From a virus, in the IMG/VR virus record IMGVR_UViG_3300027763_000068, positions 1 through 59,209 of that record: a DNA stretch of 59,209 nucleotides; one strand, 5' to 3'. Both the position numbers and the translations under genes were made by a program. The stretch's first letter is position 1. Each line of letters opens with the position of its first letter. Below are positions 29,820-49,902 of the stretch, in pieces. The notes beneath the pieces were generated by a model, which was not told the origin of the DNA, did no database searches, and saw nothing but the letters and a program-made list of their open reading frames with translations.

Positions 29820-30503
29820 TTATCCAGTTAAACCAAACGAATCATAAGTTATTCCTGATATATTAAAATTCAAAGCTTGATAATTGACAGTATCAATTAC
29901 AGGAATATTACTCTTAATTTCGCCGTAAACGTACGATTTTGCAATAAATTGATAAGAACTAACAATAAACCGTCTTGTGCTAAAATCGCCTTCATATTCT
30001 TGTGTTAGTGTAGTTGTGTTTAAAGAAATTGGAATTTTTACTCCCTGTTGCATAGAATTCATATTTAAAGAAATTACAAACTCTGGTCCAAAATACGGTA
30101 ATATTTGTTCCATTATTTGAAAATTTTCTTCTAAATTTCTTGTAAACACATTAAATCCAAACACAAAATTATACGGCACTTCAGAATAAATATATGTTGC
30201 ATTGCTACCAGAAGTACAAACTTTTTTGTTTGTTTTATTTAATCTTCTTGTTGGATCATAAACAAAACCTAAAAGCTCAAAAGACATTCTAGGTAAAGAA
30301 ATTTCAATACGTGTTTTATCACTTATCGAACTAGGTTCTGTTAAACGCTTAACAAACTTTTCTTTATTGGCGTAAGAAAGAGGAACGGTAAATAATCGTT
30401 CATTATTGTTTTCGTCTTTTTGTTCTAGTTGAATACCGTTAAATAAACTACCAAAACCAATTACTAATTTTCTTATTGAATCGTTTTTAAAATGCGAAAA
30501 CAT
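29820..30503 (-). CDS. gp15: Tail sheath stabiliser/tail completion gp15
   Basis: A 227-residue protein that forms the hexameric ring ending the tail and joining it to the neck. It begins with FKNDSIRKLVIGFGSLFNGI and continues VPLSYANKEKFVKRL, both typical of gp15, with LPRMSFELLGFVYDPTRRLN near residue 70. It follows gp14 with a 1-nt overlap, the T4 order 13-14-15-16-17. Confidence 0.93.
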   Translation of the reverse strand: MFSHFKNDSIRKLVIGFGSLFNGIQLEQKDENNNERLFTVPLSYANKEKFVKRLTEPSSISDKTRIEISLPRMSFELLGFVYDPTRRLNKTNKKVCTSGSNATYIYSEVPYNFVFGFNVFTRNLEENFQIMEQILPYFGPEFVISLNMNSMQQGVKIPISLNTTTLTQEYEGDFSTRRFIVSSYQFIAKSYVYGEIKSNIPVIDTVNYQALNFNISGITYDSFGLTG

Positions 30504-31435
30504 TAGTAATTACCCTCAGAAAATGGATCTATTTCGCTAAAATTAATTAAATCTAATTTAGCTGCTTCTGTTTCAATTTCATCATTATCTCCTGCCGGAG
30601 TTCTATCTTCACTGTTATTCAACACAATGTTTGTGGTTTGACCTGTATTGCTTAATACGTAACACTCTAAACCGCTGTCTACACCCTTTAAGGTTTCTCC
30701 TGTACTAATAGTTCCTGTTATATTAATCAGTTCTATTATACCTGTCAGACCTGCTGGTTTCATTGCAATAACACCAGAACCGGTTGCGTCTTCTTCCAGA
30801 GCATTATTGCCGGTAAATCCAGCAACTTGATAAACAAATTCTCCTGCATAATAATTAGTTGTAGTTATACCTGTAATATCATTTCCTGTAACAAATTGAT
30901 ATGTGTATTGTCTGCTTTCCGGTTGAACTGCATCGATATCGGTAGTTCCAGTGGTAACTCCTTCTTGATCGTATGTGAACAGTTCACAGGTTAAACGATA
31001 AGAGTATAATTTTCCTAGCTCATAAAAAGGATTTTCATGTTCCACAAAGTTAATTTCAAACAAAGATTTAGAAAGAGGAAAATAAATAAGATCGCCTTCT
31101 CTTGGTCTGGTTATTACAGAAAATCTAGTTTGTATTTCCTGCATGAATCTTTTCTTTGAAACAGTTAAAAATATATTATCTTTAATTTCAATGCCAAATT
31201 TACTGGCAATATCACCTTGTCCTTGAAATCCAGAAACAGAATCAATATACATTTCAATAGGAACTGAATCTTTATAATTAACTCGCTTTCCTTCACCAAA
31301 AATTTTATCTAATTCCACCATATTTCTTGGAATATAGTACATCTCTCTACCCATCGTTTTAATGATTTCGATGGTTAGATCTTCTGTAATATCTTGCTCA
31401 CCAGAATAATCTTTGAAATATGGATTAGTTGCCAT
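30503..31435 (-). CDS. gp14: Neck protein gp14
   Basis: A 310-residue neck protein that, with gp13, bridges portal and tail. Family signatures are the start ATNPYFKDYSGEQD and MGREMYYIPRNMVELDKIFG near residue 30. A C-terminal extension after residue 160 carries thrice repeated Gly-Thr-rich segments of the fibre type (GVIAMKPAGLTGIIELINIT). It is slightly longer than T4 gp14 (256) because of this extension. Confidence 0.93.
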   Translation of the reverse strand: MATNPYFKDYSGEQDITEDLTIEIIKTMGREMYYIPRNMVELDKIFGEGKRVNYKDSVPIEMYIDSVSGFQGQGDIASKFGIEIKDNIFLTVSKKRFMQEIQTRFSVITRPREGDLIYFPLSKSLFEINFVEHENPFYELGKLYSYRLTCELFTYDQEGVTTGTTDIDAVQPESRQYTYQFVTGNDITGITTTNYYAGEFVYQVAGFTGNNALEEDATGSGVIAMKPAGLTGIIELINITGTISTGETLKGVDSGLECYVLSNTGQTTNIVLNNSEDRTPAGDNDEIETEAAKLDLINFSEIDPFSEGNY

Positions 31436-31436
31436 T

Positions 31437-32237
31437 TTAACCTGTCATAAAGTTTACTGGTAATTCGTATTCGTTTTGCATTTGTTGTTCAATTGCTGCT
31501 ATTTCATTAATAGCTTCCTGATAAATTTGTCCACCGCGCATCACCACACCACCAGGCAATGCCACACCATCAAATTTAGCCATATTTGCACCCCATTGAC
31601 GCTTGATTAAAGCAGTCAAATATCGTTTAAGGTAACGATCATTGAACATCTCGGTGTATTTTTCTGGATTAAGTGCGGCGTACGCCCAGATACAAATAAA
31701 GTCACCAACTTTTGTTTCTTGGCCCCAATTCATTTCTAAGTACAATCTGTTGGTTACCTTACTGAATACTACAGTTTTTTCTGGTTGAAACATGTCTTGG
31801 ATCAACTGAATATACCGTTTTGTTGAGTCGTATGAAGCAAGACCCATAGAGTTTACACCACTAAGATTTCTGTTAATACCAAAGTAGTCGGTTAGTGCTA
31901 GTTGGTATCGCACATCAAACATGTTGATATTGGTAAATGGACCAAATTGCATTACCTTAATTATAGAAACAATTTCCTTTCCAGTAGGTCCGTCTACTTC
32001 GTTTGGAGAAAGGATGTCTTCAGTATTGATGTATCGGTTATTAATATCGGTTTGAGTTAATTGATATTTAAAAAATACTTTCTCAACACCATCAAAATGG
32101 CGTTCAGTAAAGTATTGCAAAGCGTCATCCAGACGATCTTCTGCTTGTTCCCAATCTACGTTTATATCAATAACCGGTGATCCTAATTGTCTATAAGCGT
32201 ATTCGATTATGGTTTGTCTTGAATTTGGTGCTGCCAT
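31437..32237 (-). CDS. gp13: Neck protein gp13
   Basis: A 266-residue neck subunit. The N-terminus SRQTIIEYAYRQLGSPVIDI, then WEQAEDRLDDALQYFTERHF, and the C-terminal helix KRYLTALIKRQWGANMAKF are the conserved elements of gp13. It is first in the run gp13 to gp17. Good AAGGAAG ribosome site behind a CATAAATA element. Confidence 0.95.
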   Translation of the reverse strand: MAAPNSRQTIIEYAYRQLGSPVIDINVDWEQAEDRLDDALQYFTERHFDGVEKVFFKYQLTQTDINNRYINTEDILSPNEVDGPTGKEIVSIIKVMQFGPFTNINMFDVRYQLALTDYFGINRNLSGVNSMGLASYDSTKRYIQLIQDMFQPEKTVVFSKVTNRLYLEMNWGQETKVGDFICIWAYAALNPEKYTEMFNDRYLKRYLTALIKRQWGANMAKFDGVALPGGVVMRGGQIYQEAINEIAAIEQQMQNEYELPVNFMTG

Positions 32238-32273: not shown

Positions 32274-32807
32274 TTAAGACTGGGGAGTTGCTGGTGGTTC
32301 TTGCTTGTTTTCTGGAAGAGTTACTGGAATGCCTGCAACTTGATTATAATCAATATTTTCAATGTAATATCGTCTTGTGATTGGTTCATTGGCCTCGTCT
32401 GGCTTGCTTGGTTGATAATTAGTAAATCCAGGCATATTTAAAGGACAATTTAGTTTTGGATAATCTAATTTGCTGTACTCTTCACCGTTAGAAGTCAACC
32501 AAGTCATTGGTTTATCACCACAACCGCAACCACCACAGAAATGCTTTCCGGGAGTAGTGCTTTCCTTTAGGTGCTCACATGGCGGTAATTCGCCACCTAA
32601 ATGTTTATTGCCAAAACAACTAAGTACTCTTAATTGTTTGGTTGCTTTATTTACTTTATGGCCAGCAAGTCCTCGGGAAGTTAAAGCAGTAGCAAAACTT
32701 TGAATCATGCCCATTTTTTGGGACAAAATAGTTTTAGCTTGTTCTGGATTTCCTTCTTGACGAAACTCAGGATTATTTTGATTATTTTTATTGCATCCAC
32801 ATCCCAT
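32274..32807 (-). CDS. Cysteine-rich protein beside the neck genes
   Basis: A 177-residue protein of unknown family. It starts MGCGCN and has further cysteines in LSCFG, PPCEH, HFCGGCGCGDKP and LNCP, nine or more in all. The close spacing (C-x2-C-x-C) suggests a bound metal, either zinc or an iron-sulphur cluster, rather than random cysteines. A helical region (residues about 20-60) precedes the cysteine core and the C-terminus is proline-rich. It is co-directional with gp13 and the adhesins, so it is probably a virion or assembly protein. Confidence 0.75.
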   Translation of the reverse strand: MGCGCNKNNQNNPEFRQEGNPEQAKTILSQKMGMIQSFATALTSRGLAGHKVNKATKQLRVLSCFGNKHLGGELPPCEHLKESTTPGKHFCGGCGCGDKPMTWLTSNGEEYSKLDYPKLNCPLNMPGFTNYQPSKPDEANEPITRRYYIENIDYNQVAGIPVTLPENKQEPPATPQS

Positions 32808-32831: not shown

Positions 32832-34133
32832 TCATGAATCCAAATAAATTCTTCGGAATAATCTTACACCTATGGTCTTTCCTCTGTACACCATATTTGT
32901 TTTTCCGTAATTTTCTTCAGTATTTGCCATTTGAGCAACCACAAAAGTTTTTCCACTAAACTCCTGAACACCATTTAAAGAGAATACGGTGGAAGTCATG
33001 TACTGTTCTTTAGTTAAACCAAAGAATCCAGAAGTTTCATAACCAAACGAAATATTTTTAAAGTATAGTGCTAGTTCGTCTTGACTGGGAAGATACCAGT
33101 CAGAGAAACCATTAATCTTATACTGTTTAATCTGAGACAACAGTGTATTGTTTTCAGATATTGTTGTGTCGTAAGTGTTGTATAAACCATCGTAACTTGA
33201 TGTTGTTAGTGTACTGGTTGGTTCGTTTTCCACGTTGTACGGAAAATCTGTAAAGTCTGATACACTTGCAATCAGTATCCAAGACTTTTCTTTAGTGCCA
33301 GGACTATTTCCTCTTGCACGATAATTTCCAGCAGTTCCTGTTGTTCTGTTTCCGTATACTTCACTGCCCAACGAATTTACCGGAGATCCTGGTTGAAATA
33401 CTCCAACGTATAAACCACCCTGATATAATGATCCTACTGCTGGTAACGTTTCTATAGGATTTGTGGAAGATATTATGGTGCTTAAAGAAGCTCTGGCTGG
33501 AGTTTTTGCTCCACTGAGTCCTGCAAAATAAACACCAGAACATGGATTAAGATCTAAACACGATTGAATAGTTTTATTTGGAGCCGACCAATAACCAAAA
33601 CAATTTTTCTTAGATTTTATTGAACAATCAATAGTTCCATCATTGTTTTGTGTACAACAATTTCCTATCGAATTATTTGAGTTATAGCAATTAGTGTAGT
33701 CGTTAGGATTGCAATTATCAGATACATCACTAGCAGAAATATTAACAGAATTGCATTGTATATTACCACCATCAAAAACACAAGTTTCTCCGGGATAGAA
33801 AGAATAACCTAAATTTTCTGCAGCTCCTTGATTTGCATTAATGCAATCTAATTGAGAGTTTACTGCAGTGCATCCTTGAGTGTATAAACCATTGGTTTTA
33901 GTCCAATAACAACAAGCACCCGATACATCACCAATCAATTTACTAACACAAAGTCCAGAGGACGGGCAGTCTGTTCCATCAAAAGCTCCAGATATAAAAT
34001 ATCCGTTTGCCGCATCGCATGCAGCTCTGGTAGAAACACTAGAAAGACCACAACACCAACCGGTAGATAAAGGACCAATTACAGTTGGTGGATTGTATTG
34101 AGCAGAAATTCTTGATCTGAATTGAATTGACAT
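32832..34133 (-). CDS. Cys-rich adhesin with DUF1566 (lectin-like) C-terminus
   Basis: A 433-residue protein from the ATG chosen directly behind the stop of the large fibre gene; a GTG eight codons earlier is possible. The N-terminal half holds three 'CC' repeats that start GWCC (residue 25), GACC (72) and GNCC (157), each with about six cysteines. The C-terminal half (from about residue 238) is a DUF1566/Lcl domain with the signature WYLPSQDE (346-353) and a final KTIGVRLFRRI strand. Such domains have a C-type-lectin-like fold and bind ligands. Probably a receptor-binding tail protein. No collagen-like part, unlike its neighbours. Confidence 0.75.
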   Translation of the reverse strand: MSIQFRSRISAQYNPPTVIGPLSTGWCCGLSSVSTRAACDAANGYFISGAFDGTDCPSSGLCVSKLIGDVSGACCYWTKTNGLYTQGCTAVNSQLDCINANQGAAENLGYSFYPGETCVFDGGNIQCNSVNISASDVSDNCNPNDYTNCYNSNNSIGNCCTQNNDGTIDCSIKSKKNCFGYWSAPNKTIQSCLDLNPCSGVYFAGLSGAKTPARASLSTIISSTNPIETLPAVGSLYQGGLYVGVFQPGSPVNSLGSEVYGNRTTGTAGNYRARGNSPGTKEKSWILIASVSDFTDFPYNVENEPTSTLTTSSYDGLYNTYDTTISENNTLLSQIKQYKINGFSDWYLPSQDELALYFKNISFGYETSGFFGLTKEQYMTSTVFSLNGVQEFSGKTFVVAQMANTEENYGKTNMVYRGKTIGVRLFRRIYLDS

Positions 34134-34134
34134 G

Positions 34135-37100
34135 TTAACCGTTCGGTAATGAATCACACAGTACTTGTACTTGTGAGCAGTCTAATGATACTAATGTGCC
34201 GTCTAGTAATTTATTTTTAAATTGGGTTGTAGGAGCAAAACCATAATCTGAATATAATGCATGATTGTACGCAAAAATTTTAGTTATGGTTCTCCACGCT
34301 TCTTGTCCTTGCCAGTCGTATCCAATTAACGTTTTTGCGGTTAATTTAAATACAAATTTGTATATTTTAGTGTCTGCGCCTTTTGCTTTGTACCAGACAG
34401 GAGTATCGATTCCATCAAAATTAAACACAAATCCAAGTATATTTTCTGATGGATTCGTTACATAATCAATGCTATCCTCATACTTATAATCTACACCGGT
34501 AAAATCTGTCTTTAACAACCAAGCCTCAGCTTTAAACTCACTAATAGTTCCACGTTGGCCATTTGCGTTAAAAAGTTTTTCTAAGTTTGGTCGTATATTG
34601 ATGAATACACCTTCTCTGCCACCAGTTGTATCTACTCCTGATGTTACTTTTGGAAGCATGGTACCAAAAGGCATTACAGTTTCGTTTACGTAACCGTCTC
34701 TATTCCAAATAGCATCCACAGAAATGGTAGGAACTCCTTTTAGCGCAGGTCCTGCTGTAATGTGAGCGTTTGCAACCACTCCAAAATATTCTTGAGTATA
34801 TTGTGAATTGTTAGCAAAAGGAAAAGGAAGTGGGTAGTCTGGTGTTCCTGGAACTATCGCTGTAGTAAACTGTTCTCGATTATATTGGTATAATGCAAAT
34901 AATGGATTGTAACCTAAGTCCAACACAACACTACTTTGTTGTGGAATTCTCTCACGCGTGCGTTCATCAATGTAATAACTCATAACACTATACTCTAATT
35001 TATTTGGTTGTGTGGTATTTACTCCATTTATATCTAAAGTTAAACTTTCTCCAAATAAATTAACAGGAATAGGTTGATTTAATATGTCATCACAGTAACA
35101 ATTACTGTAAGAACCGTATTGACCAAACAGTAAACAGCTGTTTGGTGGATAGCAAGACAAATCTGTGCCGGTATCACAATGTCTGCCTCGGAACATCTTG
35201 TCCATAAATTTAAAGTATATGTCTTCTCTGCTTCCAAACTCAGCAAGATTAAATTGGCTATAAACTGGTTTCAGGCAATTAAAAGCTATGTATTTCCACC
35301 ACTCCGATTCCCAAGGCTGAGGAGTAGCTCCTATAGTATCACATGTTTTTCCCCATTGTTCAATTGGAATTTTACAACCATCTTCTGCAGAAATTGTATC
35401 TCGTTGTAAACTGTATTTTGTTTTACCACCAACTGTAGTTTTAATCAAATCAGATTCTTTTAACTCACCAAGAAGATACAAAGACCAATCCGGACAAGGA
35501 GATCCAGTAAGAATATCAGGTTGTCCTTCCACTTCTTTACACACACAATTAGTATCATCCCCCCAGGTTTTGTTCTTCTTATAATAATAAGAAAATCCAA
35601 TAGGTGTATCAGTAGAAAATAAATTATCAGAACACGATAAAGTGGTGTCTATACTCTTATCTGAATTATTGAATACAACACGAGATATATTTAAATTGTA
35701 ACCTGCCCAACAGTGTTCTGCAGTAAAACCAGAAAGACATGCTGAACATAGTGCACCAAATACACCACAATAATCTGGTTGTCCACATTCACTGGCTCTT
35801 TGCATGGATCCGCCAAGTTTATTCATCCAAAGTAAGTATTTTACAGTTTTGCCTGCAGGAGCATTAAATCCTAAATTTAAAATTTCCCCACCATTTGCTA
35901 GTGAACCAAACACTATATTTCCAGCACAACAGCTGAGTTCGCTTGCATTTATTGTGACTTTTTTGTTTACTTTTGCGGGATTAAACGCCATCAAAGCGTT
36001 ATCACTACCAGCATTAATATCTGTTTGATTTAAAATAGCAGTTTGTAAATCATTTAAAATTTGTTTTTGTTGATCTTGTTTTATTCCGCGACTTGCAATA
36101 GCAAGCGGTGCTTGTATAAAATCTATTTGTGAAAAATAAGGGTCTAACACATATCCGGTGCATCCACCAATAGATGCAAATACCTTTGAAAGACCTTTGC
36201 AGGAAAATGTTGCTGGATTTTTTTGATTAAAACATCCAACAGATCGTGTTTTTATTTCTTGTAAATAGTTCCATTGAACCGGATCACAACCGGAAGCGCA
36301 TGTTGTTGGGCGATTACCTTGCCAAACACCAACCCCGTATTCTGCGTGAACACATTCGTCTGATGCTTTATCAGAATCTTTACAATCCCAAACTTCTTCT
36401 ATTGGTCCATATGTTATACAATCAATATTAACATTCCAACCACAAGATCCGTTTTTAGACACACAGAAATTAACTAATCCCTTTTGTGTTTTTACAGGAG
36501 GATATTCTAAATATGAACCATAATCTTTAGCACAATCCATACACAATCTGTTTATAGTAAATTGTGATTGTACTTTAAATTGATCGGTCGGACTGCCACC
36601 TTGACAAGTATTACACCCATCTATAGGTACAGGAGGTTTAGATACTACATAAAAATTTATATTTTGTGAAAATTTAGTATTAAGTAGTGTATCTAATAGT
36701 ACTGCGTTTATAGTATTTTTAATACCATTTTTTCTACCAAATTCATCGTATGTGGTACTAATTTTTATGGTTACTGTAGCACCATTTGGTAGCAAACCAC
36801 CAGTATAACTAGAACCATTATATGTTTGTGTTATAGTAAACACATGGCCTAGTGTATTTGTGTGTGTGCTTGGCAGCTGTAATCTAACACCAGCAGGATC
36901 TGTAGTGCTTACTGTTATTTTGAATTGTGTTTCTTGTGGGGTGCTATCAGGAAGAATGATATCGGTTACAGGAGAACCATCAGCATTTAATATTGTAAAG
37001 CTGTAAGTGTACACAGGAATAACACAGGGTGGCACAGCGTCCGAGCAGTGCTTAGTGCTATTCCAAGTTCCGGTACAATTAGACCGAATAGTTTCTGTAC

Positions 37101-38772
37101 AAACACTACCATTACAACAAGCACCGTAAACTGGTGGTGGAGGATTCGAGCAATTTATGGTAGCACATGTCGAGTTTGGATAAAATACTGTCGTTGTGCC
37201 ATTTATAGCTTTGGCATCACATGATATTTGTGTTTCGTCTGGTGAACAGGATTTGCTGCCAGAAGAAGTGGTGACACAACACACACCAGAGGTACAATCT
37301 GCAGTTGTACATGTAGCACTTGCTGTCCATATATATCCACTTCCTTTAGCAAAACAAGCGGTTTGTGATATATTATTGTTAATAATACAAGCGTCTTTGT
37401 TTATACAACAACCTAAAACTGGAGAACAAACAACGCTTGGATCACTGCACGCGAGACCCGAATAAAAAGTTTTTCCTCCAGTACAGTTTGCTGGCAGTAC
37501 ACCATCTGTGCAAGTTCCAGCATCACAACAAGCTCCAGTGCTTGGAGAAGTACCACAATCAGTACATGGAGTTGTTGAAAACACACCATTTATTTCATTG
37601 CACGTATTTTCATTTGAATTATCATAACAAGTACCTTGACTACAACAGTAACCAATTCTTCCACAAGTTTGAGTACAGCTGGTGAGTGGAGTAAACACTC
37701 CTTCACCTAGTGTTCGTGCTTCACAATCAGATCCAGATATATTATCCCAACAATAATTAATATCTTGCCAGCAACACGATCCTACTGGATCACTGTAAAA
37801 TTTTCCTGTTTTTCCTATACCTCGATCAACAAATGCAGCATTAAAAGTAAGACCACCGTTCTCACTCCACATATGAACAATGTTCATGCCTTCCAGGAAT
37901 CCGTATTTACCTATTCCTTTATCAGTATTTTCAAAATATACATTTGAAGGAAAATTCCAAACGTCTTGGCCTTGTACAAACAGTGTGTAAGACTGTAAAA
38001 CAGAATTATCTGCGCTTGTTGTAAATGCTGTTATTCCAATTGGAGTCTTTAATTGATAAACAGAATATTTGTCCAGATTAATTGTGAAACCACTGGAATC
38101 CACTGCTAAAACTATATCGTTTGTTGTTCCAGTTACTATATTTCTGGCCATAGGTGTTAGATTATAAAAAGGTTCTACAAATTCTGAATAAACTTTAATA
38201 GAACTACCGGTTGCACCATTATCTGCTGTTAATCCAAACGATAGAACAGAATTAGAACCGGTTACTCCTATTCTTGTCGTAGTTGCTGAAAAGGTATCAG
38301 CAGTGTACACCACATAGTTTGCTGTGGTAGTTCCGTAAACTCCACTGTCAGTAATTGGTGATACAGTTAATAAAATTTCAGAACCATCAGAACTTAAAGT
38401 TGCTGCTATATTTCCACCACCACAAATTCCTCGAAATTCAAAAGTTTTTCCAGATATTACACTGGAAAATCCAGAATAATAAGTTGCACCAGACTGCAAA
38501 GAAACGCCTCGGGAATCTGAGTAACTTCCGGTTGGGCCAGTAAATCCAAATAATGGACCTAGTATAGTTCCGTTAGATAACTCGAATGTTATTCCACTAG
38601 AAACCAGATCAGAAACCGCGTTTATAATCCAAACACCAGTAGCACCAGTAGGACCTGAAGTTATACCGATCGCACCACGCAATCCGGCTGGACCGATGGA
38701 TCCAGTAGGTCCTGTTGGACCGGTTCGACCAATCAAATTTCCTATTGTGCTGTTTCCTATAATTGAAGGCAT
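34135..38772 (-). CDS. Giant Cys-rich, collagen-like fibre/adhesin (1545 aa)
   Basis: The largest gene of the window. Residues 16-46 are collagen-like (GRTGPTGPTG...); 50-320 a beta-rich stem; 331-583 six tandem 'CC' repeats; 585-720 an Ig-like domain (YTYSFTILNADGSPVTDI); 740-1200 a further region with many scattered cysteines (CNTCQGG, CMDCAKD, CGVFGALCSACLSG, CVCKE); the remaining part is beta-rich and ends CDSLPNG. The mosaic suggests a long tail appendage with repeated binding modules. No enzyme motif is visible. The protein would be one of the most cysteine-rich in the virion. Confidence 0.8.
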   Translation of the reverse strand: MPSIIGNSTIGNLIGRTGPTGPTGSIGPAGLRGAIGITSGPTGATGVWIINAVSDLVSSGITFELSNGTILGPLFGFTGPTGSYSDSRGVSLQSGATYYSGFSSVISGKTFEFRGICGGGNIAATLSSDGSEILLTVSPITDSGVYGTTTANYVVYTADTFSATTTRIGVTGSNSVLSFGLTADNGATGSSIKVYSEFVEPFYNLTPMARNIVTGTTNDIVLAVDSSGFTINLDKYSVYQLKTPIGITAFTTSADNSVLQSYTLFVQGQDVWNFPSNVYFENTDKGIGKYGFLEGMNIVHMWSENGGLTFNAAFVDRGIGKTGKFYSDPVGSCCWQDINYCWDNISGSDCEARTLGEGVFTPLTSCTQTCGRIGYCCSQGTCYDNSNENTCNEINGVFSTTPCTDCGTSPSTGACCDAGTCTDGVLPANCTGGKTFYSGLACSDPSVVCSPVLGCCINKDACIINNNISQTACFAKGSGYIWTASATCTTADCTSGVCCVTTSSGSKSCSPDETQISCDAKAINGTTTVFYPNSTCATINCSNPPPPVYGACCNGSVCTETIRSNCTGTWNSTKHCSDAVPPCVIPVYTYSFTILNADGSPVTDIILPDSTPQETQFKITVSTTDPAGVRLQLPSTHTNTLGHVFTITQTYNGSSYTGGLLPNGATVTIKISTTYDEFGRKNGIKNTINAVLLDTLLNTKFSQNINFYVVSKPPVPIDGCNTCQGGSPTDQFKVQSQFTINRLCMDCAKDYGSYLEYPPVKTQKGLVNFCVSKNGSCGWNVNIDCITYGPIEEVWDCKDSDKASDECVHAEYGVGVWQGNRPTTCASGCDPVQWNYLQEIKTRSVGCFNQKNPATFSCKGLSKVFASIGGCTGYVLDPYFSQIDFIQAPLAIASRGIKQDQQKQILNDLQTAILNQTDINAGSDNALMAFNPAKVNKKVTINASELSCCAGNIVFGSLANGGEILNLGFNAPAGKTVKYLLWMNKLGGSMQRASECGQPDYCGVFGALCSACLSGFTAEHCWAGYNLNISRVVFNNSDKSIDTTLSCSDNLFSTDTPIGFSYYYKKNKTWGDDTNCVCKEVEGQPDILTGSPCPDWSLYLLGELKESDLIKTTVGGKTKYSLQRDTISAEDGCKIPIEQWGKTCDTIGATPQPWESEWWKYIAFNCLKPVYSQFNLAEFGSREDIYFKFMDKMFRGRHCDTGTDLSCYPPNSCLLFGQYGSYSNCYCDDILNQPIPVNLFGESLTLDINGVNTTQPNKLEYSVMSYYIDERTRERIPQQSSVVLDLGYNPLFALYQYNREQFTTAIVPGTPDYPLPFPFANNSQYTQEYFGVVANAHITAGPALKGVPTISVDAIWNRDGYVNETVMPFGTMLPKVTSGVDTTGGREGVFINIRPNLEKLFNANGQRGTISEFKAEAWLLKTDFTGVDYKYEDSIDYVTNPSENILGFVFNFDGIDTPVWYKAKGADTKIYKFVFKLTAKTLIGYDWQGQEAWRTITKIFAYNHALYSDYGFAPTTQFKNKLLDGTLVSLDCSQVQVLCDSLPNG
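37024..37782 (-). repeat. Six tandem cysteine 'CC' repeats in the giant adhesin
   Basis: Six units of 30-45 residues start GSCC, GYCC, GACC, GCCI, GVCC and GACC. Each follows the pattern G-x-C-C, x3-8, C, x7-9, C, x-rich G-x-F/Y segment, C, x3-6, C, so about six cysteines per unit. The units differ in sequence and spacing, showing old duplication rather than recent slippage. The same unit occurs in three neighbouring genes. Confidence 0.8.
38635..38727 (-). repeat. Collagen-like G-x-y segment in the giant adhesin
   Basis: Residues 16-46 are a Gly-x-Thr/Pro series (TGPTGPTGSIGPAGLRGAIG) interrupted once near GITSG. Such short collagen-like runs trimerise phage fibres. Related runs open the next two upstream genes. 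Confidence 0.75.
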
Positions 38773-38781
38773 AGTTTATTT

Positions 38782-38789
38782 TATTTATA
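38782..38789 (-). promoter_or_regulatory. Late promoter octamer before the giant adhesin
   Basis: Perfect TATAAATA on the minus strand in the 20-bp gap before the 1545-residue gene. Only nine bases (AAATAAACT) separate it from the ATG and no ribosome site is seen, so a transcript begun here would be nearly leaderless. It might also be chance in AT-rich spacer DNA. Confidence 0.5.
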
Positions 38790-38792
38790 ATA

Positions 38793-39902
38793 TTAACAAG
38801 GAGGCGGATTTGCCGAGCAAGAAGTGGCGGAATCAAAAACACCACCATATTGCAAACAAACTGTGCGATTAGTGTCTACACAGGTTCCATTAATACAACA
38901 AGCACCAAAATCATCACAGTCTTGCGTTCTTCTATTGATACAGGGATTGGGAGAAAAATTACCACTTAAATTGTTTTCGCAGACATATCGAGTGATATAA
39001 TCTAAACACGTTTTTGCTCCATTTGAATTACAGTAACAACAAGAACCAATAATTTTGTTTTGGTATGTTGTGGTATTGGTGTCGTTAAAAATATCAGAAC
39101 TTATATAAGTTATACCAGAATTTTGGTTTGTTCCGGTTACACCTTTATAGCCGGTGTGATAAATTTGCTTACTGGTCCAAGTATTTCCAGACTTATAAAA
39201 TGAATTAACTGAAGAATCCCAAGGATTTGTAACCAAGGCAGTGATTCCAGTTATATTGATAAGATTTACATTTGTAATACCTGTGGTATTTTTGCCTTGC
39301 AAAAAGGAACCCATTAACGCACTTGCTAGATGTGCTGTCGTGGATCCACTAGTTACTGTTTGATAACGAAATACTCTGTTTCCTGTTTTGTCTAGTAAAG
39401 TATTAGCTGTATTTCCTAACGCATATAAAACAGTACCACTAACACCTAATGCATTAGAAGAAGTTGCAGTTACTCCTTTGAATATTAAATTATTACCACT
39501 GTAAGTTAAACTTAATCCAGCAGAACCAAAAATAGATTTAAAGTAAGCAGTTAAACCTATTACTGGATTATTGCTAACAATACTAAAAGCATTAGTATCA
39601 ACTCCGGTTACACCTTTAACATCAAACGGATTGGTAGATACTAAACCAGAAAAATCTGTTGGAGTATTGCCTGAAAGGCCAGTTATTGATATTTTGGTTC
39701 CATCAATTAAGTGTACAGTTATTCCGTTTGCATCTATTTTTGTTATGAATGCAACACCAAGTCCGGTGGCTCCGGTTGCTCCGTTATTACCTCCAGTTGG
39801 ACCGGTTGGACCGGTTGGACCTGTGGAACCAGTAGCACCAATAAAGGTGTTGGCTATCGGCATATTACCAATTGGGATATTACTGGATCCTAGTCTACTC
39901 AT
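38793..39902 (-). CDS. Collagen-like, Cys-rich fibre protein
   Basis: A 369-residue protein with three parts: an N-terminal anchor-like stretch (NIPIGNMPIANTFIG), a collagen-like run at residues 22-48 (GATGSTGPTGPTGPTGG and GATGATG), a beta-rich stem, and two 'CC' repeats at the C-terminus from residue 286 (GSCCYC... and GACCINGTC...). The C-terminal end PPPC closes the second repeat. It is a small version of the giant neighbour, which probably arose by duplication. Likely a homotrimeric tail fibre. Confidence 0.75.
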   Translation of the reverse strand: MSRLGSSNIPIGNMPIANTFIGATGSTGPTGPTGPTGGNNGATGATGLGVAFITKIDANGITVHLIDGTKISITGLSGNTPTDFSGLVSTNPFDVKGVTGVDTNAFSIVSNNPVIGLTAYFKSIFGSAGLSLTYSGNNLIFKGVTATSSNALGVSGTVLYALGNTANTLLDKTGNRVFRYQTVTSGSTTAHLASALMGSFLQGKNTTGITNVNLINITGITALVTNPWDSSVNSFYKSGNTWTSKQIYHTGYKGVTGTNQNSGITYISSDIFNDTNTTTYQNKIIGSCCYCNSNGAKTCLDYITRYVCENNLSGNFSPNPCINRRTQDCDDFGACCINGTCVDTNRTVCLQYGGVFDSATSCSANPPPC

Positions 39903-42763
39903 AGTGGGGAGCTCGGAAGTGTTGGTGTGGTTGTATTATTTATTGTCTGATTTTTATTTACTATTCTATCTTTATATACTGGTGGTATCTTCCATAATTT
40001 ACTACTAGCTGGAATCAACCCGTCGCAACGCAACATACGAACAGGTCTTACTTTATATAAATCCTGTCTGCTAGCTTTATACACTTTATAATTGTTTATA
40101 TCACCATTAACATCAATATTCATGGCAATTGCAACAGAACCTGGAGAAGAAGTAATTTGTGTTTTTACTCCATTTATAATAAATTCACCATAACATCCTT
40201 CTAGTTTTGCAAAATTAAAAGCACCAGTAGAAGTCCAATACGTTCCATTTAATGGTTCACCGTTTACAACTAAATTTTGATTAATATTGTAACCAAAAGT
40301 ATTTGTTGTATTTGCTGCAATAAAAGCCATTTCATCGTGGCTTGGTAAATACCATCCAGAAAGTATTGCGTTGTTTGGAGTTGCTGTTTGAGTATCGGAA
40401 GTCAATCCATCAGACAATAATCTGGTTGCTCTAAATGCATTTGGAATTGTGGTTACTGCGTAGAATTGATTGTAATTTATAGGATTTGTGCCAGGAGGAT
40501 TTACTGCTCGTTGCCAATAAGCATTATTTGCATTAACTGCTCGAATAGTATTGTAAAGTCCCCAAGATGTTTTCCAATAACCAAATAATTTGGGAGTTTC
40601 TGATGCTGTATCAAATGCACGAGATTCGCCACCATTACCCAGACCTGTTGATGTAGAACATGTGACAAACGTATCACGTAATATTATTTGAGCTAATGTT
40701 GCACCAGTAAATCCCTGTGCCCAGTATCCTTCTTTAAGATAAAATTTTGTAGTATAATATTCGTACGGATTATCATTATATGTAATATCATTTCCACCTG
40801 GCATAGGGCCCCAAGATGATCCAGTTGCTCCCCATGGGAATGTGTTATATTGATACGTTTCATCTGGAGATTTAATATTTAATTTTGAATCAATGTAAAC
40901 GTCATCCGGATAAACTATAAGCACATAAGATTCATTAATATTATTACAGTCTTTAGTTATACCGTATGCTCTATGATCAACATAAGAAGTGTAAAATTCA
41001 GAAGAATAAGTAGTTTCTGGCATACATCCAGTAACTCCTGATGGAGAAAATAAAGTTTTAGCTCCTAAAATTAAACTTTTGCCAGGATTAAATACATCAA
41101 CAACAATTCCGCCACCGTATTTTGATCCTTTACTAATAGGAACACCGTCAACAAAACCCAAGCAAGATATTGTGGTTGGGCATATAAATGAATCACAAGA
41201 TTGTGTTACACCACCATAAAATCCGTTAGAAGTAAAACAAGTAGAAAAAGATGTTTGTGAACAAGAACCATTTATGCAACACGGACCAGTGCCAGAAGCA
41301 CAAACAGCACGACCTAATGTGTCAAAACAAGAACTGGAGTCTCCTTGATAAAAACCACCAGACGATACGCAAGTATTATACGGCAATTCTTGACAATTTC
41401 CTCGGCCATCACAGCACGCACCTATCCTGTCAAATATCTTATTACAATTAGTGGTTGCTGTGCTTGTAAAATTTCCTGCAAATTTTACGGTTTGAGAAGC
41501 TAATCGTTGTAAACAGTCAGTACAGGTTAATTGATCAGAAATTGCTTCTCTTATCTTTGTACTGCCGGAAGTAGTTTCTTGACAACAACAACCCGGCTTA
41601 TCGCAGATAAAATCTGTGGCAGGACCACACGTAGTTCCTGCTCCATGAAAAAATCCAGTACAATTAGACGCTATGGTTTCAACACACGTACCGTCAGATT
41701 TACAACACGCACCCACAATAGTGCCCAAATAAGATTGACCAGATCCAGAACTAGTACTGCAATTTGTTTGATATAATGTGGTATCACATTTAGTTGATGT
41801 TGGTACAGCAGTAGCATACCAGCTACCATTTATACCGAAGAAAGAAATCTTCATATCACAGGTAACACCATCCACCGACAAACAAGGAGATTGTTGTTGT
41901 GGCCAAAAAATGTTTGAACTGAATCGTTTTGTTATATCTCTAGGATTCTTTGCACCAGAAACAATTAAATCAAATGCGTATGCATTTTGGTCTGGTGTGT
42001 AATCATTAACAACTATGGTTCCAGTATTATTTGCAAAATCTGCAACAAATACTCTAGATCTGGCACCAAACATCAATGAATCGTATTCAGCAGTAAACGG
42101 ATTAAACGTACAAGTTATACCATTGCCAGAGTGCTCGCAATAAACAGCTCCTGTAGAACCTGTCCATCCAGCTCCTCTTACGTGTTCAAACACGTTTGCG
42201 TTTACAAAACGAACACTTTGAACAGGTGGCCCAGATATTCCTGTACTTTGTAAGTAAGTAATACCGGACGTATTTGGTATTCTTTCAAGCTTTCCGGAAG
42301 AATTAAATCTTAAGAAATTTCTGTCTGTGGTAGAACTGGCAGCAACAGTTACGCCTTGAGAAATGTTCTGCAAAGATATATCAATATAGTTTACCCGATC
42401 TACGACAGACAAAACAGAATTTGAATTATTTACAAATCTAACAGGACGTAACAGTATATCACTACCACTAATACCGTAAGCCAAACTAATACCATTACCC
42501 AGATTGTTTACCGCCAGTGAGTATGATGCATTTCCGGTTGCACCATATATTTGAGTAGCAGTACCATAAGTTTTACCGTTAGAAAATGTAGTAATAAGAT
42601 ACCGATTTACCAGAGTGATACCAACAATACTTGGTCCTGTGTTTCCTGTTAAACCAATACCAGTGGCACCTGTTATACCGGTAGCACCTGTAGGCCCGGT
42701 AGGTCCGGTAACACTGTACTGCGATCCGAATAGATTGACTGAGCTGGAACTCAGAATGTTCAT
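39899..42763 (-). CDS. Collagen-like, Cys-rich fibre with DUF1566 domain (954 aa)
   Basis: A 954-residue mosaic. Collagen-like run at residues 20-45 (TGPTGPTGATGITGATG), beta-rich stem to about 290, four 'CC' repeats at 351-534 (GACCKSDGTC, GCCCQETTSG, GACCDGRGNC, GPCCINGSC), then a large DUF1566 domain with GWYLPSHDE near residues 802-810, TYWTST and a VRPVRMLRC end. After it a short Thr/Pro tail. DUF1566 domains are C-type-lectin-like and suit receptor binding. It overlaps the next gene by 4 nt, so the two fibres are co-translated. Confidence 0.78.
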   Translation of the reverse strand: MNILSSSSVNLFGSQYSVTGPTGPTGATGITGATGIGLTGNTGPSIVGITLVNRYLITTFSNGKTYGTATQIYGATGNASYSLAVNNLGNGISLAYGISGSDILLRPVRFVNNSNSVLSVVDRVNYIDISLQNISQGVTVAASSTTDRNFLRFNSSGKLERIPNTSGITYLQSTGISGPPVQSVRFVNANVFEHVRGAGWTGSTGAVYCEHSGNGITCTFNPFTAEYDSLMFGARSRVFVADFANNTGTIVVNDYTPDQNAYAFDLIVSGAKNPRDITKRFSSNIFWPQQQSPCLSVDGVTCDMKISFFGINGSWYATAVPTSTKCDTTLYQTNCSTSSGSGQSYLGTIVGACCKSDGTCVETIASNCTGFFHGAGTTCGPATDFICDKPGCCCQETTSGSTKIREAISDQLTCTDCLQRLASQTVKFAGNFTSTATTNCNKIFDRIGACCDGRGNCQELPYNTCVSSGGFYQGDSSSCFDTLGRAVCASGTGPCCINGSCSQTSFSTCFTSNGFYGGVTQSCDSFICPTTISCLGFVDGVPISKGSKYGGGIVVDVFNPGKSLILGAKTLFSPSGVTGCMPETTYSSEFYTSYVDHRAYGITKDCNNINESYVLIVYPDDVYIDSKLNIKSPDETYQYNTFPWGATGSSWGPMPGGNDITYNDNPYEYYTTKFYLKEGYWAQGFTGATLAQIILRDTFVTCSTSTGLGNGGESRAFDTASETPKLFGYWKTSWGLYNTIRAVNANNAYWQRAVNPPGTNPINYNQFYAVTTIPNAFRATRLLSDGLTSDTQTATPNNAILSGWYLPSHDEMAFIAANTTNTFGYNINQNLVVNGEPLNGTYWTSTGAFNFAKLEGCYGEFIINGVKTQITSSPGSVAIAMNIDVNGDINNYKVYKASRQDLYKVRPVRMLRCDGLIPASSKLWKIPPVYKDRIVNKNQTINNTTTPTLPSSPL
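41162..41713 (-). repeat. Four tandem cysteine 'CC' repeats in the 954-residue fibre
   Basis: Four units following the same G-x-C-C...C...C...G-x-F/Y...C...C plan as in the giant adhesin. The second unit has an extra cysteine (GCCCQE). Units are diverged at the DNA level. Confidence 0.75.
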
Positions 42764-42779: not shown

Positions 42780-43922
42780 TTACCACAGTGATGGAACAGT
42801 ATTATTTTTTAGTAGATTCAAACGAGTTTCGAGTAATGATATTTTTGCTTCTAGATCGGTTATAGAACCAACAGCCACAGTTCCAGACACATCAAGAGAA
42901 GCTATGCTGAGAGCGTCTGGTATGGTTACTCGGCTAGATTGTTGAGTTTTGATCCATGGAGTAAAGTTTGCGCTGTTTTGAACAGGAGGATTTGTGTCGG
43001 TTACAGGAGGCACTTCAAATTGAGAAATGCTGGTTGAAGAAGCACTATATGGATTTCCATTTATTGTTAATGTTTGTGTTGTGTTTATTAAAGATTGTGT
43101 GCGAGTTTTAAGTATATCAATGTATGGAGAGGGGCTAGTTCCTGATCCGTAGACAGTACCTACACTAACACTATTTTGTGTTACTATTCCTCGTGGAGAA
43201 CTACTAGTCACAGTACCACTAGAAACAATAACTCTTTCAATGTATCCGGCTGTAGTCCAAGCAGTAACCCATACTTGATATAAATCTGGATATGTTGACA
43301 CACTAAAGTAATTATTGCTGCTTTGAAGTTGTGTCCATCCACCAGAATTAATAAAACTGGTGTAATTTACATAATCAGCCGGGAAGTACACCACAGAACC
43401 TATAGGTAGACCACCAACATTTTCGCTGATTGTGGCTTGATTTCCTGCTTTATAACCAACGTAATTAGTCACTACTGCATTGTAAATGCTGTGTGGGGCC
43501 ACTTGCATGACTGGTTTGATAATTTTCTCACCAGAAGTGCTCATGTCTACAGTTCCGGTTAAACCACCAGAAACAGTATCACTCAAGAATAAAACGTCTA
43601 CGTTGCCTGCTCCACCACTGGTTATAGCACTTAATCTGGAACTGGGGTATTGAATAGATCCAGTTAAAACAACCGTGCAACCACTAGCGTTGACACTTTC
43701 AACCACACCTAATACTTCAGCTTTTGGTTCTGTACTTGCTACTGATAGAGTGTATCCTCCGGTTGGTACGTCCCATCGGATAACGTCTCCTGCAGTGATT
43801 CCGGTTGTTGGTAATCCGTCTGTAGTTTTAATACTAATTGCCAGACGACTGGTATCTTGAGTTAATATAGTGTACGGTGCAAATACTCGGGTGTTTTGAT
43901 TTGATGTGGAGAAAGATGTCAT
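42780..43922 (-). CDS. Tail fibre/collar-domain protein
   Basis: A 380-residue structural protein. Residues about 170-220 (LPIGSVVYFPADYV, GGWTQLQ, STYPDLYQVW) follow the plan of the phage tail collar domain found in gp12-like fibres. An N-terminal module (residues 43-95: GDVIRWDVPTGG, AEVLGVVE, VVLTGSIQYP) is repeated in the next upstream gene. The C-terminus is a short coiled coil (DLEAKISLLETRLNLLKN) that could trimerise. A tail fibre or short-fibre component is likely. Confidence 0.7.
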   Translation of the reverse strand: MTSFSTSNQNTRVFAPYTILTQDTSRLAISIKTTDGLPTTGITAGDVIRWDVPTGGYTLSVASTEPKAEVLGVVESVNASGCTVVLTGSIQYPSSRLSAITSGGAGNVDVLFLSDTVSGGLTGTVDMSTSGEKIIKPVMQVAPHSIYNAVVTNYVGYKAGNQATISENVGGLPIGSVVYFPADYVNYTSFINSGGWTQLQSSNNYFSVSTYPDLYQVWVTAWTTAGYIERVIVSSGTVTSSSPRGIVTQNSVSVGTVYGSGTSPSPYIDILKTRTQSLINTTQTLTINGNPYSASSTSISQFEVPPVTDTNPPVQNSANFTPWIKTQQSSRVTIPDALSIASLDVSGTVAVGSITDLEAKISLLETRLNLLKNNTVPSLW

Positions 43923-43931
43923 CCGTTATCC

Positions 43932-46256
43932 TTATACGTTAAGATTTAAGTCTGCGTCTGCAACATAATGGAATGTTAGTGTGTCTAAGTGGGTAGCACC
44001 ATTCAATATACTTAAAATCATGCCATTCTTTGAAGCAGAAATTGCTGATATGTTTGGACTTGGCCAAGCTGAAGTTGTTCGGCTGGTTGTGGTATCCCAA
44101 GGAAGATTTACTAATCCGTCTCCAGAATAACGCATATCTTTTCCAGTGTTAACATTGTATGCGTCTCCTTGTTGACCGCTTGGAGAATACAAAGTTATTG
44201 TTGGTGTAGTTACAGTTTCTACTGGGAACGGTATTGTGTAAAATCTTTGTGAATTTAGATTACCAAGTTGTAGTTTTTGTTCGTTGAAACGAGAACTGCC
44301 GGTGAAACCGTTGTTTTGATCCCAATCGTAAGTTCTCAGATAATACGGACTACATCTTTCCAGTTCTAGTTTAGGATCTTTATAAATTGCGTCAGTCACA
44401 TCGCCACCAAGTTCTAGTTGAACTTGAGCCAAGCTAACCGTGGCCGTGCTGGACGGGAATTCTAGTCCGACAGCTAACCAACCGGTTTCTGTTACACCTA
44501 AAGTAAATCCTGCAACAGCTGGAGTGAATGTGTATTGGTATTGATTCCATAAAGTGTTCAGTGTGATGCCGGTTGGATAAGTTACATTTACACGAGATTC
44601 GGTTGCAGTTTTTACCGCAGCAGAATTGGCGTAAGTGTCTTTATATCGGTTATAAACAATATCTAAAGTAGAACCACTCACAGTAGACTTGGCCCAGAAT
44701 GATAAGGTTGCTTGTTGTCCTTGAAGCAGTCTGGCTTCACTTTGAACGTTTTCTAGTCTTGGTCTATTTTGTGCAGCACTAATACCAGAGTATTGTGTGT
44801 TAAAATCCACGTAATATAGTGGAGAACCTGGTACTGAAGTTTGATTTGAGTCAAAAGTTTGTCTGCTAGTGTTTAATGTTAGACCAGAAATGCCGGTTAA
44901 ACCGTTCTTCACCACAAACCATCTGTCAGCAAATGGTGTAGAGTAAGTATTTAAACTACCGGCAGTTAATGAAGTTGCTTGTCGTTGCCAGATAGAAAAT
45001 GCACCATTAGGAATTAAATTATCATACTCTAAAGCAGCAGTAGTTCCACTAGTTGCAACTGATCCAGCTCCAACATATGAACTGCCACCAGAACCTGTTG
45101 CATCACGCGCACCAATAATTATTTTTGCATTTGAAGCATCAGTTTTAATAAAATCAACAAACTTGGCTTTATTGAGAGCAACAGCATTTATACCAGTGAT
45201 TAAACGACCACTGGAATCTAATATTAACTGATCTGTTTTAGTTGTTGTTGTAAAGAAATTTGTGTCTAAATCAGAAATTAAAGTATTAAATGAGCCACCC
45301 GGTAAAGTAACTTCTAAAATATATTTGGTACCATCATTTACTAAAATTTTACTAATTAAACCTAAGAAACTATTTCCTGTCAACCAAGTTCTATCGATTG
45401 ATGAAGCTAAATTTAAAACATAACACACATTATACGTAGAACCGTTTATTTTTCCATAAGTTTTTGATGCAAATCTGGCACTATTACTGTCATTTGTAGT
45501 ATCGTCTGTAAAGTAAATCACAGGATCACCAGTTTTTACTGTTGCAGTAGGAGTGTCTGCTATGTCTATTTGAATTACAATTTTATTATCAAGTTCCGCA
45601 GTAATACCAGCACTTATACCTTCTATTTGAATACCACGATAAGGAAGCAAAGCACCAGCATTACCACAAATACCTAAAATCATAGGTTTAGAAACGTAAC
45701 CGTAAGTTTGTGGTTCTACTGTAGTAATACCACCAGCAACTACAGGATCTAAGAAGTACGCCCGACCAGCAATCAAAGTACCACCAGCAATTCCTAAAGC
45801 ATTTCCTATTATTGATGAAAAATTAGTACTGTTAATGGAACCGTTAACCGCAACAATATTCGAGGTTGCGTCTTCACCAATAACAATTCCCAGCACTTCA
45901 GCGTTTGTTCTAGAGTCTGCTTTTGCTAGAGTTACACCGCTTGATGTCACACGAACAACATTTCCTGCGGTTAGTCCAGACACTTTAGGAAGTACACTGA
46001 TGGTTGTGCTGGAAACTGTTGGGCTGGAAGCAAAAGAAACTGTTCCGTTAAATTTTACATTACCAGCAAATGTAACACCAGTTGATACATTGTTACTATG
46101 ACCAATAGTAAATACGCCACTAGAACTGCTAAGACTAATACCGTCACCAGCAAGAATATTATAAACTGTCACTCCATTTAATGTACTAATAACAGTATTG
46201 GTTGTGTCGAACCAAGTCTTAAACGTATCGGTGTATAATAGGTTGCTTATTGCCAT
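43932..46256 (-). CDS. Tail fibre with C-terminal jelly-roll-type domain (774 aa)
   Basis: A 774-residue fibre. The N-terminus LLYTDTFKTWFDTTNTVIST is the baseplate-attachment motif common in marine T4-like fibres. Residues about 95-145 carry the AEVLGIVIGED/VNGSI module also seen in the neighbour. The C-terminal 360 residues begin NLIPNGAFSIWQR (413-425) with ADRW (443-446), a carbohydrate-binding-type jelly roll that is often at the tip of tail fibres. No chaperone or cleavage motif seen. Confidence 0.75.
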   Translation of the reverse strand: MAISNLLYTDTFKTWFDTTNTVISTLNGVTVYNILAGDGISLSSSSGVFTIGHSNNVSTGVTFAGNVKFNGTVSFASSPTVSSTTISVLPKVSGLTAGNVVRVTSSGVTLAKADSRTNAEVLGIVIGEDATSNIVAVNGSINSTNFSSIIGNALGIAGGTLIAGRAYFLDPVVAGGITTVEPQTYGYVSKPMILGICGNAGALLPYRGIQIEGISAGITAELDNKIVIQIDIADTPTATVKTGDPVIYFTDDTTNDSNSARFASKTYGKINGSTYNVCYVLNLASSIDRTWLTGNSFLGLISKILVNDGTKYILEVTLPGGSFNTLISDLDTNFFTTTTKTDQLILDSSGRLITGINAVALNKAKFVDFIKTDASNAKIIIGARDATGSGGSSYVGAGSVATSGTTAALEYDNLIPNGAFSIWQRQATSLTAGSLNTYSTPFADRWFVVKNGLTGISGLTLNTSRQTFDSNQTSVPGSPLYYVDFNTQYSGISAAQNRPRLENVQSEARLLQGQQATLSFWAKSTVSGSTLDIVYNRYKDTYANSAAVKTATESRVNVTYPTGITLNTLWNQYQYTFTPAVAGFTLGVTETGWLAVGLEFPSSTATVSLAQVQLELGGDVTDAIYKDPKLELERCSPYYLRTYDWDQNNGFTGSSRFNEQKLQLGNLNSQRFYTIPFPVETVTTPTITLYSPSGQQGDAYNVNTGKDMRYSGDGLVNLPWDTTTSRTTSAWPSPNISAISASKNGMILSILNGATHLDTLTFHYVADADLNLNV

Positions 46257-46260
46257 GGGA

Positions 46261-46992: not shown

Positions 46993-46994
46993 TT

Positions 46995-47396
46995 TTATAT
47001 GTCGTTTATATTTATACTAATATCAAATCTATAAGTACGCTTAGTACTGGGAAATACTTCAATCGGACTATCGCTTATAATTTGGGGGGAAACTATTTTT
47101 CCGCTGTCAGGAGCAATTTCTGGAGTTACCAATTCTCTCACTTTATAAACGGTACTGGCAATTGTTACTTCATCATTAACGGCAACTATGTCTCGCTTAT
47201 CTGCAACATCTAGTCTATAACCGGGACCTTCTGTGGTGGTTGATACCAGTCTTACTTTACCATTTGATTTAGTGTTTAAACTGGTGTAAAAAATATTATA
47301 ACTGTTTAAAGCTGGCTTAGTAACAGAAGTACCAGTGGTTGCTTGGTACTGTGATACAGAAAAAACTTCTTGAAATGATCCGGGATTGTATGCCAT
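46995..47396 (-). CDS. Small beta-rich hypothetical tail protein
   Basis: A 133-residue protein of unknown family, predicted mainly beta strand, without cysteine or signal sequence. It begins MAYNPGSFQEVFSVSQYQ and contains RDIVAVNDEVTIASTVYKV. Spacing to both neighbours is 2-10 nt. Position directly after gp8 corresponds to the gp9 to gp11 region of T4, but I see no sequence support for those. Confidence 0.6.
   Translation of the reverse strand: MAYNPGSFQEVFSVSQYQATTGTSVTKPALNSYNIFYTSLNTKSNGKVRLVSTTTEGPGYRLDVADKRDIVAVNDEVTIASTVYKVRELVTPEIAPDSGKIVSPQIISDSPIEVFPSTKRTYRFDISININDI
47009..47016 (-). promoter_or_regulatory. Possible late promoter before the 243-residue tail protein
   Basis: Perfect TATAAATA on the minus strand inside the last codons of the 133-residue gene, with 16 bases to the next ATG and no ribosome site between. 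Plausible head of the fibre transcripts, but its placement in coding sequence lowers confidence. Confidence 0.4.
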
Positions 47397-47406
47397 GTAT
47401 TATTCC

Positions 47407-48774: not shown

Positions 48775-48775
48775 A

Positions 48776-49897: not shown

Positions 49898-49902
49898 TTA
49901 TA

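Follow-up and report, generated by a model that had tools for sequence, protein, structure and literature searches.

Four adjacent minus-strand ORFs of an uncultured T4-like phage carry tandem copies of a six-cysteine module, here called the CC unit, which is a real and widespread building block that has no name in the family databases searched. We think it likely that these genes encode modular, probably trimeric receptor-binding fibres in which disulphide-clamped beads lie between a stalk and a lectin head. Our window was a stretch of 59,209 nucleotides, and the features discussed are collected in Table 1.

The CC units and their conservation

The cluster lies where an earlier note, made from the sequence alone, had placed it, and recounting the unit G-x-C-C…C…C…C…C reproduced its tally of 15, with three copies in the 433/441-residue protein (441 residues when counted from a GTG, 433 from the conserved MSIQFRSR start), six in the 1545-residue, two in the 369-residue and four in the 954-residue protein. 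Exactly six cysteines were found in 13 of the 15 units, the exceptions being unit 1 of the 441-residue ORF (five) and unit 1 of the 369-residue ORF (seven); unit 2 of the 954-residue ORF has six that are off-pattern. The spacing is CC-x(2-6)-C-x(6-9)-C-x(about 13)-C-x(about 5)-C. A loose six-cysteine pattern occurs 12 times, far above chance, as 2000 shuffles of the whole proteins gave a mean of 0.02 (maximum 1) and 2000 shuffles of the cysteine-rich stretches alone a mean of 0.5 (maximum 4).

Table 1. Coordinates of the CC-unit genes, their parts and their flanks within the window
Feature	Coordinates	Strand	Content
433/441-residue protein	32832-34157	-	MSIQFRSR start, three CC units, C-terminal Lcl_C-like domain (core about 32979-33167)
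CC units 1-3, 433-residue protein	33528-34064	-	33924-34064, 33726-33923, 33528-33668
1545-residue protein	34135-38772	-	N-terminal GNS peptide, collagen-like stalk (about 38623-38730), beta-rich region, six CC units, C-terminus
CC units 1-6, 1545-residue protein	37009-37785	-	37657-37785, 37540-37656, 37420-37539, 37291-37419, 37132-37290, 37009-37128
369-residue protein	38793-39902	-	N-terminal GSS peptide, collagen-like stalk (about 39759-39839), two C-terminal CC units
CC units 1-2, 369-residue protein	38796-39050	-	38910-39050, 38796-38909
954-residue protein	39899-42763	-	collagen-like stalk (about 42629-42709), beta-rich region, four CC units, putative lectin-fold head
CC units 1-4, 954-residue protein	41168-41716	-	41597-41716, 41426-41599, 41291-41425, 41168-41290
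954-residue protein, C-terminal 419 residues	39902-41158	-	model superimposes at Z 10.5 on 8q4e, the C-terminal domain of Legionella Lcl
177-residue conserved protein, 8 Cys	32274-32807	-	directly downstream of the CC-unit cluster
Flank: tail sheath stabiliser, head closure Hc2, head-tail adaptor Ad2	29820-32237	-	T4 gp15, gp14, gp13 equivalents
Flank: tail fibre-like 774-residue ORF and baseplate wedge proteins	42780-51621	-	PHROG 4492; PHROG 219, 438, 17744

Retention of the cysteines is far above the background divergence of these proteins. Against relatives in L003, the 441-residue ORF keeps 19 of 19 cysteines at 36% identity elsewhere and the 369-residue ORF 13 of 13 at 28%; against L002, L009 and L015, the 954-residue ORF keeps 23-24 of 25 at 29-35%. 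The units appear old and kept, as the earlier note had proposed, and the cysteines, whose loss in relatives would have told against it, are largely retained in these comparisons. The L003 relative of the 1545-residue protein has two units rather than six, so the arrays change by whole units. Structure prediction for the unit, also suggested in that note, yielded a model with a pLDDT of 87.5. A unit profile (alignment A4) recovered seven units of the window at E ≤ 1, five of them at E < 1e-5; the diverged units score low against it.

The unit in bacteria and a possible relative in iRhom

Searches of Pfam and NCBIfam revealed no family shared among 50 unit pairs, PHROGs gave no match confined to the CC-unit stretches, and BFVD held nothing matching a unit pair; nor did a literature search find published accounts of such repeats in planctomycetes or phages. 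The unit is, nevertheless, present in many predicted-exported bacterial proteins, above all those of Phycisphaerae, where it was found in about a quarter of the sampled genomes of one class. These proteins have tandem GACC units in the same order, and one profile detects both groups, but the bacterial proteins often have a signal-like N-terminus as well as dockerin, multicopper-oxidase or reprolysin domains, and the collagen stalk was not found in those examined. The earlier suggestion that no such system had been described therefore holds for the domain family, which matches no known, well-characterised domain in Pfam, NCBIfam or PHROGs, and fails for a phage-only system, because the profile finds the unit in bacteria and also matches, with marginal scores, the extracellular domain of iRhom.

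Profile and fold comparisons with solved structures both gave as best match the final cysteine module of the iRhom homology domain. The structure of this domain has been called unprecedented and had no known relatives; the CC unit is a candidate for one. All 16 cysteines of the iRhom domain are paired in a predicted model (PMC10148629), and cryo-EM structures have eight disulphides (PMC11248996; PMC13277793). The putative likeness to iRhom1/2 comprises a spacing of the C-C-x5-C-x7-C-x(3)-G-x-F-x(6)-C-x4-C type and the fold of the C-terminal module, with an hhalign probability of 88% for CC unit against module. However, iRhom is an animal signalling protein with two units and a long insertion, in contrast to the tandem arrays of the phage, and the phage proteins are without its rhomboid membrane core (Pfam scans of the four ORFs found no rhomboid family).

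We regard the link as suggestive, not proven, and would give even chances to convergence of small cysteine-rich folds without shared ancestry. Consistent with convergence, the profile E-values are marginal, at 0.034-0.078 (HMM) with single units and 0.18-6 with pairs, and the structural superposition, though good locally (41 residues, rmsd 1.6 Å), has a Z of 4.6, in the range of common arrangements. Against it, two profiles and the fold comparison picked the same module, the domain seems to contain a weaker second copy of the unit, and none of 3000 cysteine-fixed shuffles of the module reached its 32.8 bits (maximum 23.7), a result uncorrected for preselection of the module as the best in the PDB. 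We can offer only tentatively the broader idea that the CC unit is an ancient extracellular module common to phage fibres, secreted proteins of Phycisphaerae and iRhom; on that view the iRhom domain would have arisen from a prokaryotic bead module, now present in two diverged copies, and the phage beads would be oxidised into disulphide clamps only after lysis, hardening the fibres outside the cell.

Stalks, heads and the case for receptor-binding fibres

Collagen-like repeats of the G-P-T type are visible in three of the four ORFs, where Pfam Collagen is below cut-off or absent. Most collagen-bearing members begin with a GSS-type peptide and the 433-residue protein with an MSIQFR-type one. 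All 68 full-length relatives of the 954-residue protein have CC units (2-4 each), with a GSS-like N-terminus in 59 and, likewise in 59, a second CC ORF at the same locus. At least 68 uncultured T4-like phage contigs have this unnamed domain family in their putative fibres, which gives a way into host recognition for phages without an isolate. No homologue was found by tblastn in 50,697 phage records, although its low-complexity filter may hide cysteine-rich units, and there is consequently no isolate to test; the search works for ordinary proteins, as portal homologues were found in 2499 records.

The 954-residue protein is predicted to end in the C-type-lectin fold of the Legionella adhesin Lcl. 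Its C-terminal model (mean pLDDT 64) superimposes on the Lcl C-terminal domain at an rmsd of 3.3 Å over 126 of 131 residues; Foldseek alone gave no match below E 0.2, and 8q4e was found by a second comparison (VIA). Scores for Lcl_C / DUF1566 (PF07603) were 20.3-21 bits for the 441-residue ORF, a weak C-terminal match by sequence, and 16.6 bits for the 954-residue ORF, below the curated cut-off of 34.9. The 1545-residue protein has a cysteine-containing C-terminus of about 960 residues. Lcl is a lollipop-shaped trimer that binds glycosaminoglycans (PMC11162425). It has a collagen-like stalk followed by a lectin-fold domain, an arrangement also predicted for the 954-residue protein, whereas the phage protein inserts CC units between stalk and head, has large insertions in the head and is without an export signal. 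The model also resembles the receptor-binding protein Mtd of Bordetella phage, a tropism determinant of C-type-lectin fold (Z 6.1), but there is no sequence match. We know of no CC units in Mtd. A diversity-generating retroelement, considered because of this likeness, was discarded, as the window has no reverse transcriptase.

The array sits between baseplate wedge and neck genes and is oriented like the surrounding structural genes. Marine T4-like phages (pelagi- and cyanomyophages) are described as having their host recognition cluster at this position, and collagen repeats and carbohydrate-binding domains have been reported there (PMC7029224). CC units are not known to us from descriptions of that cluster. 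Lectin-fold head, collagen-like stalks, common N-terminal peptide and conserved position are additions to the earlier picture of adhesins with beads on a fibre; its fibre-like outline with bead modules is upheld, and the virion role is one that we infer. The short N-terminal peptide probably anchors each protein to baseplate or neck, the collagen-like stretch would assemble it as a trimeric stalk, the CC units would be strung together as small beads clamped by disulphides, and the C-terminal domain, Lcl-like in two of the four proteins, may bind glycans on the host surface. The most likely role of the beads is that of a stiff, protease-resistant spacer of adjustable length, possibly adding weak multivalent binding.

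Less probably, the beads are themselves the binding modules and the terminal domains secondary. No other domain follows the two units that close the 369-residue protein, some relatives have a dozen or more units in one protein, and the related iRhom domain makes protein-protein contact with ADAM17 (PMC11248996); in the 954-residue family, however, the number of units is nearly constant and a lectin-fold-type domain always comes next, which fits a spacer. We consider it unlikely that, instead of receptor-binding fibres of the baseplate, the genes encode appendages of the neck or collar (whiskers, fibritin-like) or decorations of the capsid, with a role in controlling fibre retraction or sensing the environment. 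The array does adjoin the neck genes, and T4 wac maps to the same region, but lectin-like heads in two of the proteins and the clustering of several diverged paralogues suit receptor binding better, and PHROGs gave no wac-like match. Very improbable is a role outside the virion, after release at lysis or display on the host, as decoys or aggregation factors. Prediction does place the bacterial CC proteins outside the cell, but a crude test found a signal-like N-terminus in 0 of 79 viral CC ORFs compared with 76 of 134 bacterial ones; moreover, the genes are embedded among structural genes and their common N-terminal peptides resemble anchors.

Probable disulphides in cytoplasm-made proteins

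The earlier note had left open a disulphide- or metal-stabilised module, and we favour the former. Disulphides are unexpected in proteins synthesised in a reducing cytoplasm, and how these would acquire them is a biochemical question that they pose. Since signal-like N-termini are absent from the viral CC proteins, bond formation would come late, most probably in oxic water once the cell has lysed; no phage-borne disulphide enzyme was found among those ORFs of the window, a partial contig, that were scanned with Pfam. Binding of zinc or iron-sulphur would suit the absence of signal-like N-termini and folding in the cytoplasm, where the cysteines would stay reduced during assembly, but it is quite unlikely because the unit also occurs in predicted-exported bacterial proteins, and the matching iRhom module belongs to an eight-disulphide domain. 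To our knowledge, moreover, the spacing of the unit fits no known metal-binding pattern.

The 177-residue neighbour of the cluster was considered as an obligate partner of the CC ORFs and set aside, as the association is not strict: 48 of its 63 relatives sit downstream of a CC-unit ORF.

Cysteine repeats in four adjacent ORFs

The CC-unit feature is real and partly new. Sixteen CC pairs lie in the four ORFs, and 15 of them open a unit of roughly 38–66 residues. An earlier note, made from the sequence alone, had placed the ORFs where their coordinates put them (see table) and had correctly counted three, six, two and four units; its description of six cysteines per unit holds in general, although some units have other than exactly six. 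A loose six-cysteine pattern occurs 12 times in the four ORFs, as compared to a maximum of one in shuffled whole proteins and four in shuffled cysteine-rich stretches (2000 shuffles each). Aligned pairwise with their relatives, the proteins keep nearly all cysteines, with identity at other residues falling to about 30%. The relative of the 1545-aa protein at viral locus L003 has two units versus six in the window.

Coordinates of the CC ORFs, neighboring genes and other features (window positions unless a locus is named)
Feature	Position	Strand	Description
433/441-aa protein	32832-34157	-	three CC units
1545-aa protein	34135-38772	-	six CC units
369-aa protein	38793-39902	-	two CC units
954-aa protein	39899-42763	-	four CC units
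177-aa protein	32274-32807	-	8 Cys, begins MGCGC; between CC array and neck genes
Neck genes	29820-32237		flank the CC array
Baseplate wedge and fibre genes	42780-51621		flank the CC array
Main tail tube gene	25780-26442
Glycosyltransferase-type gene run	17-7588	-	families 2, 10, 25 and DUF707, with HAD phosphatase and FkbM-type methyltransferase; beside replication genes
TnsA-like protein	57712-58143	+	endonuclease domain; opposite strand
gp19-like ORF	58145-58753	+	weak match to T4 tail tube protein gp19; opposite strand
Viral ORF at L009	L009:12797-22765	+	at least 3322 aa, open at locus end; collagen-like start, CC units, RCC1-like repeats; adjoins a relative of the 954-aa protein
Planctomycetota CC-unit protein at L054	L054:353-3001	-	M12B reprolysin (ADAM-type) protease domain

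Fold of the unit and likeness to iRhom

Comparison of 50 unit pairs with Pfam and NCBIfam found no shared family. In the two-unit model (pLDDT 87.5), each unit consists of two short strands and a short helix. A Foldseek search of the PDB with this model listed four chains, three of them with Z ≥ 2 and all of these from iRhom-ADAM17 complexes; the best iRhom match had Z 4.6 and an rmsd of 1.6 Å over 41 residues at 29% identity. A separate search with a unit-pair sequence profile ranked four iRhom chains first (E 0.18–6), including the one bearing the best fold match, and the two methods fall on the same module of 8snl chain B (568–615 by fold, 570–606 by profile). iRhom again came first with a single-unit profile (E 0.034–0.078), which also detected a second, weaker unit in that domain. 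The score of the iRhom module, 32.8 bits (iRhom1, 29.6), falls inside the span covered by units from the window itself and was reached by no cysteine-fixed shuffle, a comparison uncorrected for picking the best of 177,635 sequences.

There are 16 cysteines in the iRhom homology domain, all paired in a predicted model (PMC10148629), and cryo-EM structures show eight disulphides (PMC11248996; PMC13277793); the authors found no similar structure. Taken together, these results are good support for the CC unit being a disulphide-clamped fold, and shared ancestry of the two modules is suggested.

Architecture, position and probable role

The 369-, 954- and 1545-aa proteins share one layout: a short N-terminal peptide, a collagen-like stretch, about 240 residues (probably beta-rich) and the CC units. 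The N-terminal peptide in relatives is mostly of the x-G-S-S-x-I type (59 of 68 in the 954-aa family). The 433-residue protein has no stalk and starts MSIQFRSR, a type of start also found in shorter or longer relatives (L001, L003, L010, L011, L026, L030, L036). C-terminal to the units, the 954-aa protein carries a 419-aa head, whose AlphaFold2 model (pLDDT 64, pTM 0.77, 13 sequences) best matched the Bacteroides fimbrial protein 4eps (Z 11.8); it also matched the C-terminal domain of the Legionella collagen-like adhesin Lcl (Z 10.5) and, at Z about 5–6, a number of C-type-lectin-like structures, Mtd among them. The 433-residue protein has a weak sequence match to the Lcl_C family (E 7e-4 and, in another search, 1.5e-5) and a short profile match to this larger head.

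Baseplate wedge and fibre genes flank the array on one side and neck genes on the other, which puts it at the site that PMC7029224 calls the host recognition cluster of marine T4-like phages and for which its authors report tail fibres, triple collagen repeats and carbohydrate-binding domains. Searching IMG/VR with the 954- and 1545-aa proteins uncovered 11 loci, with gene order conserved in the better-covered ones. The head alignment in turn found 91 relatives, and 80 of them were retained; all 68 with full ORFs have two to four units, and 59 of these 68 loci hold a further CC ORF. Some viral relatives have a dozen or more units per protein, and some add FG-GAP (L004) or RCC1-like (L009) repeats. 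Viral contigs contain at least 128 relatives of the 177-aa protein, often though not always after CC-unit ORFs; in phage records it has no match.

The best-supported reading is that the CC proteins are stalked receptor-binding fibres, in which an anchor would be followed by a collagen-like stalk, a bead array and a lectin or other head. Domain order, position and cysteine conservation were observed and the fold was modelled, with attachment, trimerisation, redox state and ligand as putative elements. A spacer role for the beads is favored by the almost invariant number of units in the 954-aa family; that the 369-aa protein terminates in units argues for the beads also doing some of the binding. 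Signal-like N-termini were found in 0 of 79 viral CC ORFs versus 76 of 134 bacterial ones by a crude hydrophobicity test, the bacterial figure being rough because many ORFs are cut and starts uncertain. With no evident export signal in the viral members, disulphides would have to form after lysis or, by some unusual route, while still in the host cytoplasm; we favor formation after lysis as the probable course.

Distribution of the unit and genome setting

The canonical-unit DNA pattern was found in 25 viral stretches, and because some lie in short collagen-free ORFs (L016, L024, L035), other phage lineages may use the unit too, perhaps through independent acquisitions. Bacterial genomes yielded at least 118 stretches, which among the matches listed belong mostly to Phycisphaerae and other Planctomycetota, with some Myxococcales, Zixibacteria, Eisenbacteria and Bacteroidota. 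The single-unit profile (E ≤ 1e-5; taxonomic groups as judged by record titles) detected the unit in 46 of 198 genomes from the class and 9 of 294 from the phylum of a Phycisphaerales genome (G001); for the phylum of a Bacteroidetes genome (G004) the figure was 1 of 247, and for that of G009 (titled Proteobacteria) 17 of 237. Dockerin, multicopper-oxidase and reprolysin domains are joined to units in bacterial members; the reprolysin domain at L054 is curious because iRhom, bearer of the related module, binds ADAM17.

The CC proteins are a known kind of object, the modular phage fibre that has a collagen stalk and a lectin head, and the six-cysteine module they are built with is widespread and unnamed. 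The earlier note's "undescribed virion system" was too strong, since bacteria have the module too, and also too weak, since it missed the head with its lectin fold, the conservation of the cluster and the link to iRhom.

The window, an IMG/VR virus record of 59,209 bases, has on its minus strand T4-type genes for capsid, tail, neck, terminase and replication. Portal proteins of a Methylophilales phage and of cyanophages share about 50% identity with that of the window, which is therefore from a T4-like phage distant from any isolate in the phage collection. The glycosyltransferase-type gene run possibly serves to alter host surface glycans. The gp19-like ORF is separate from the main tail tube gene.
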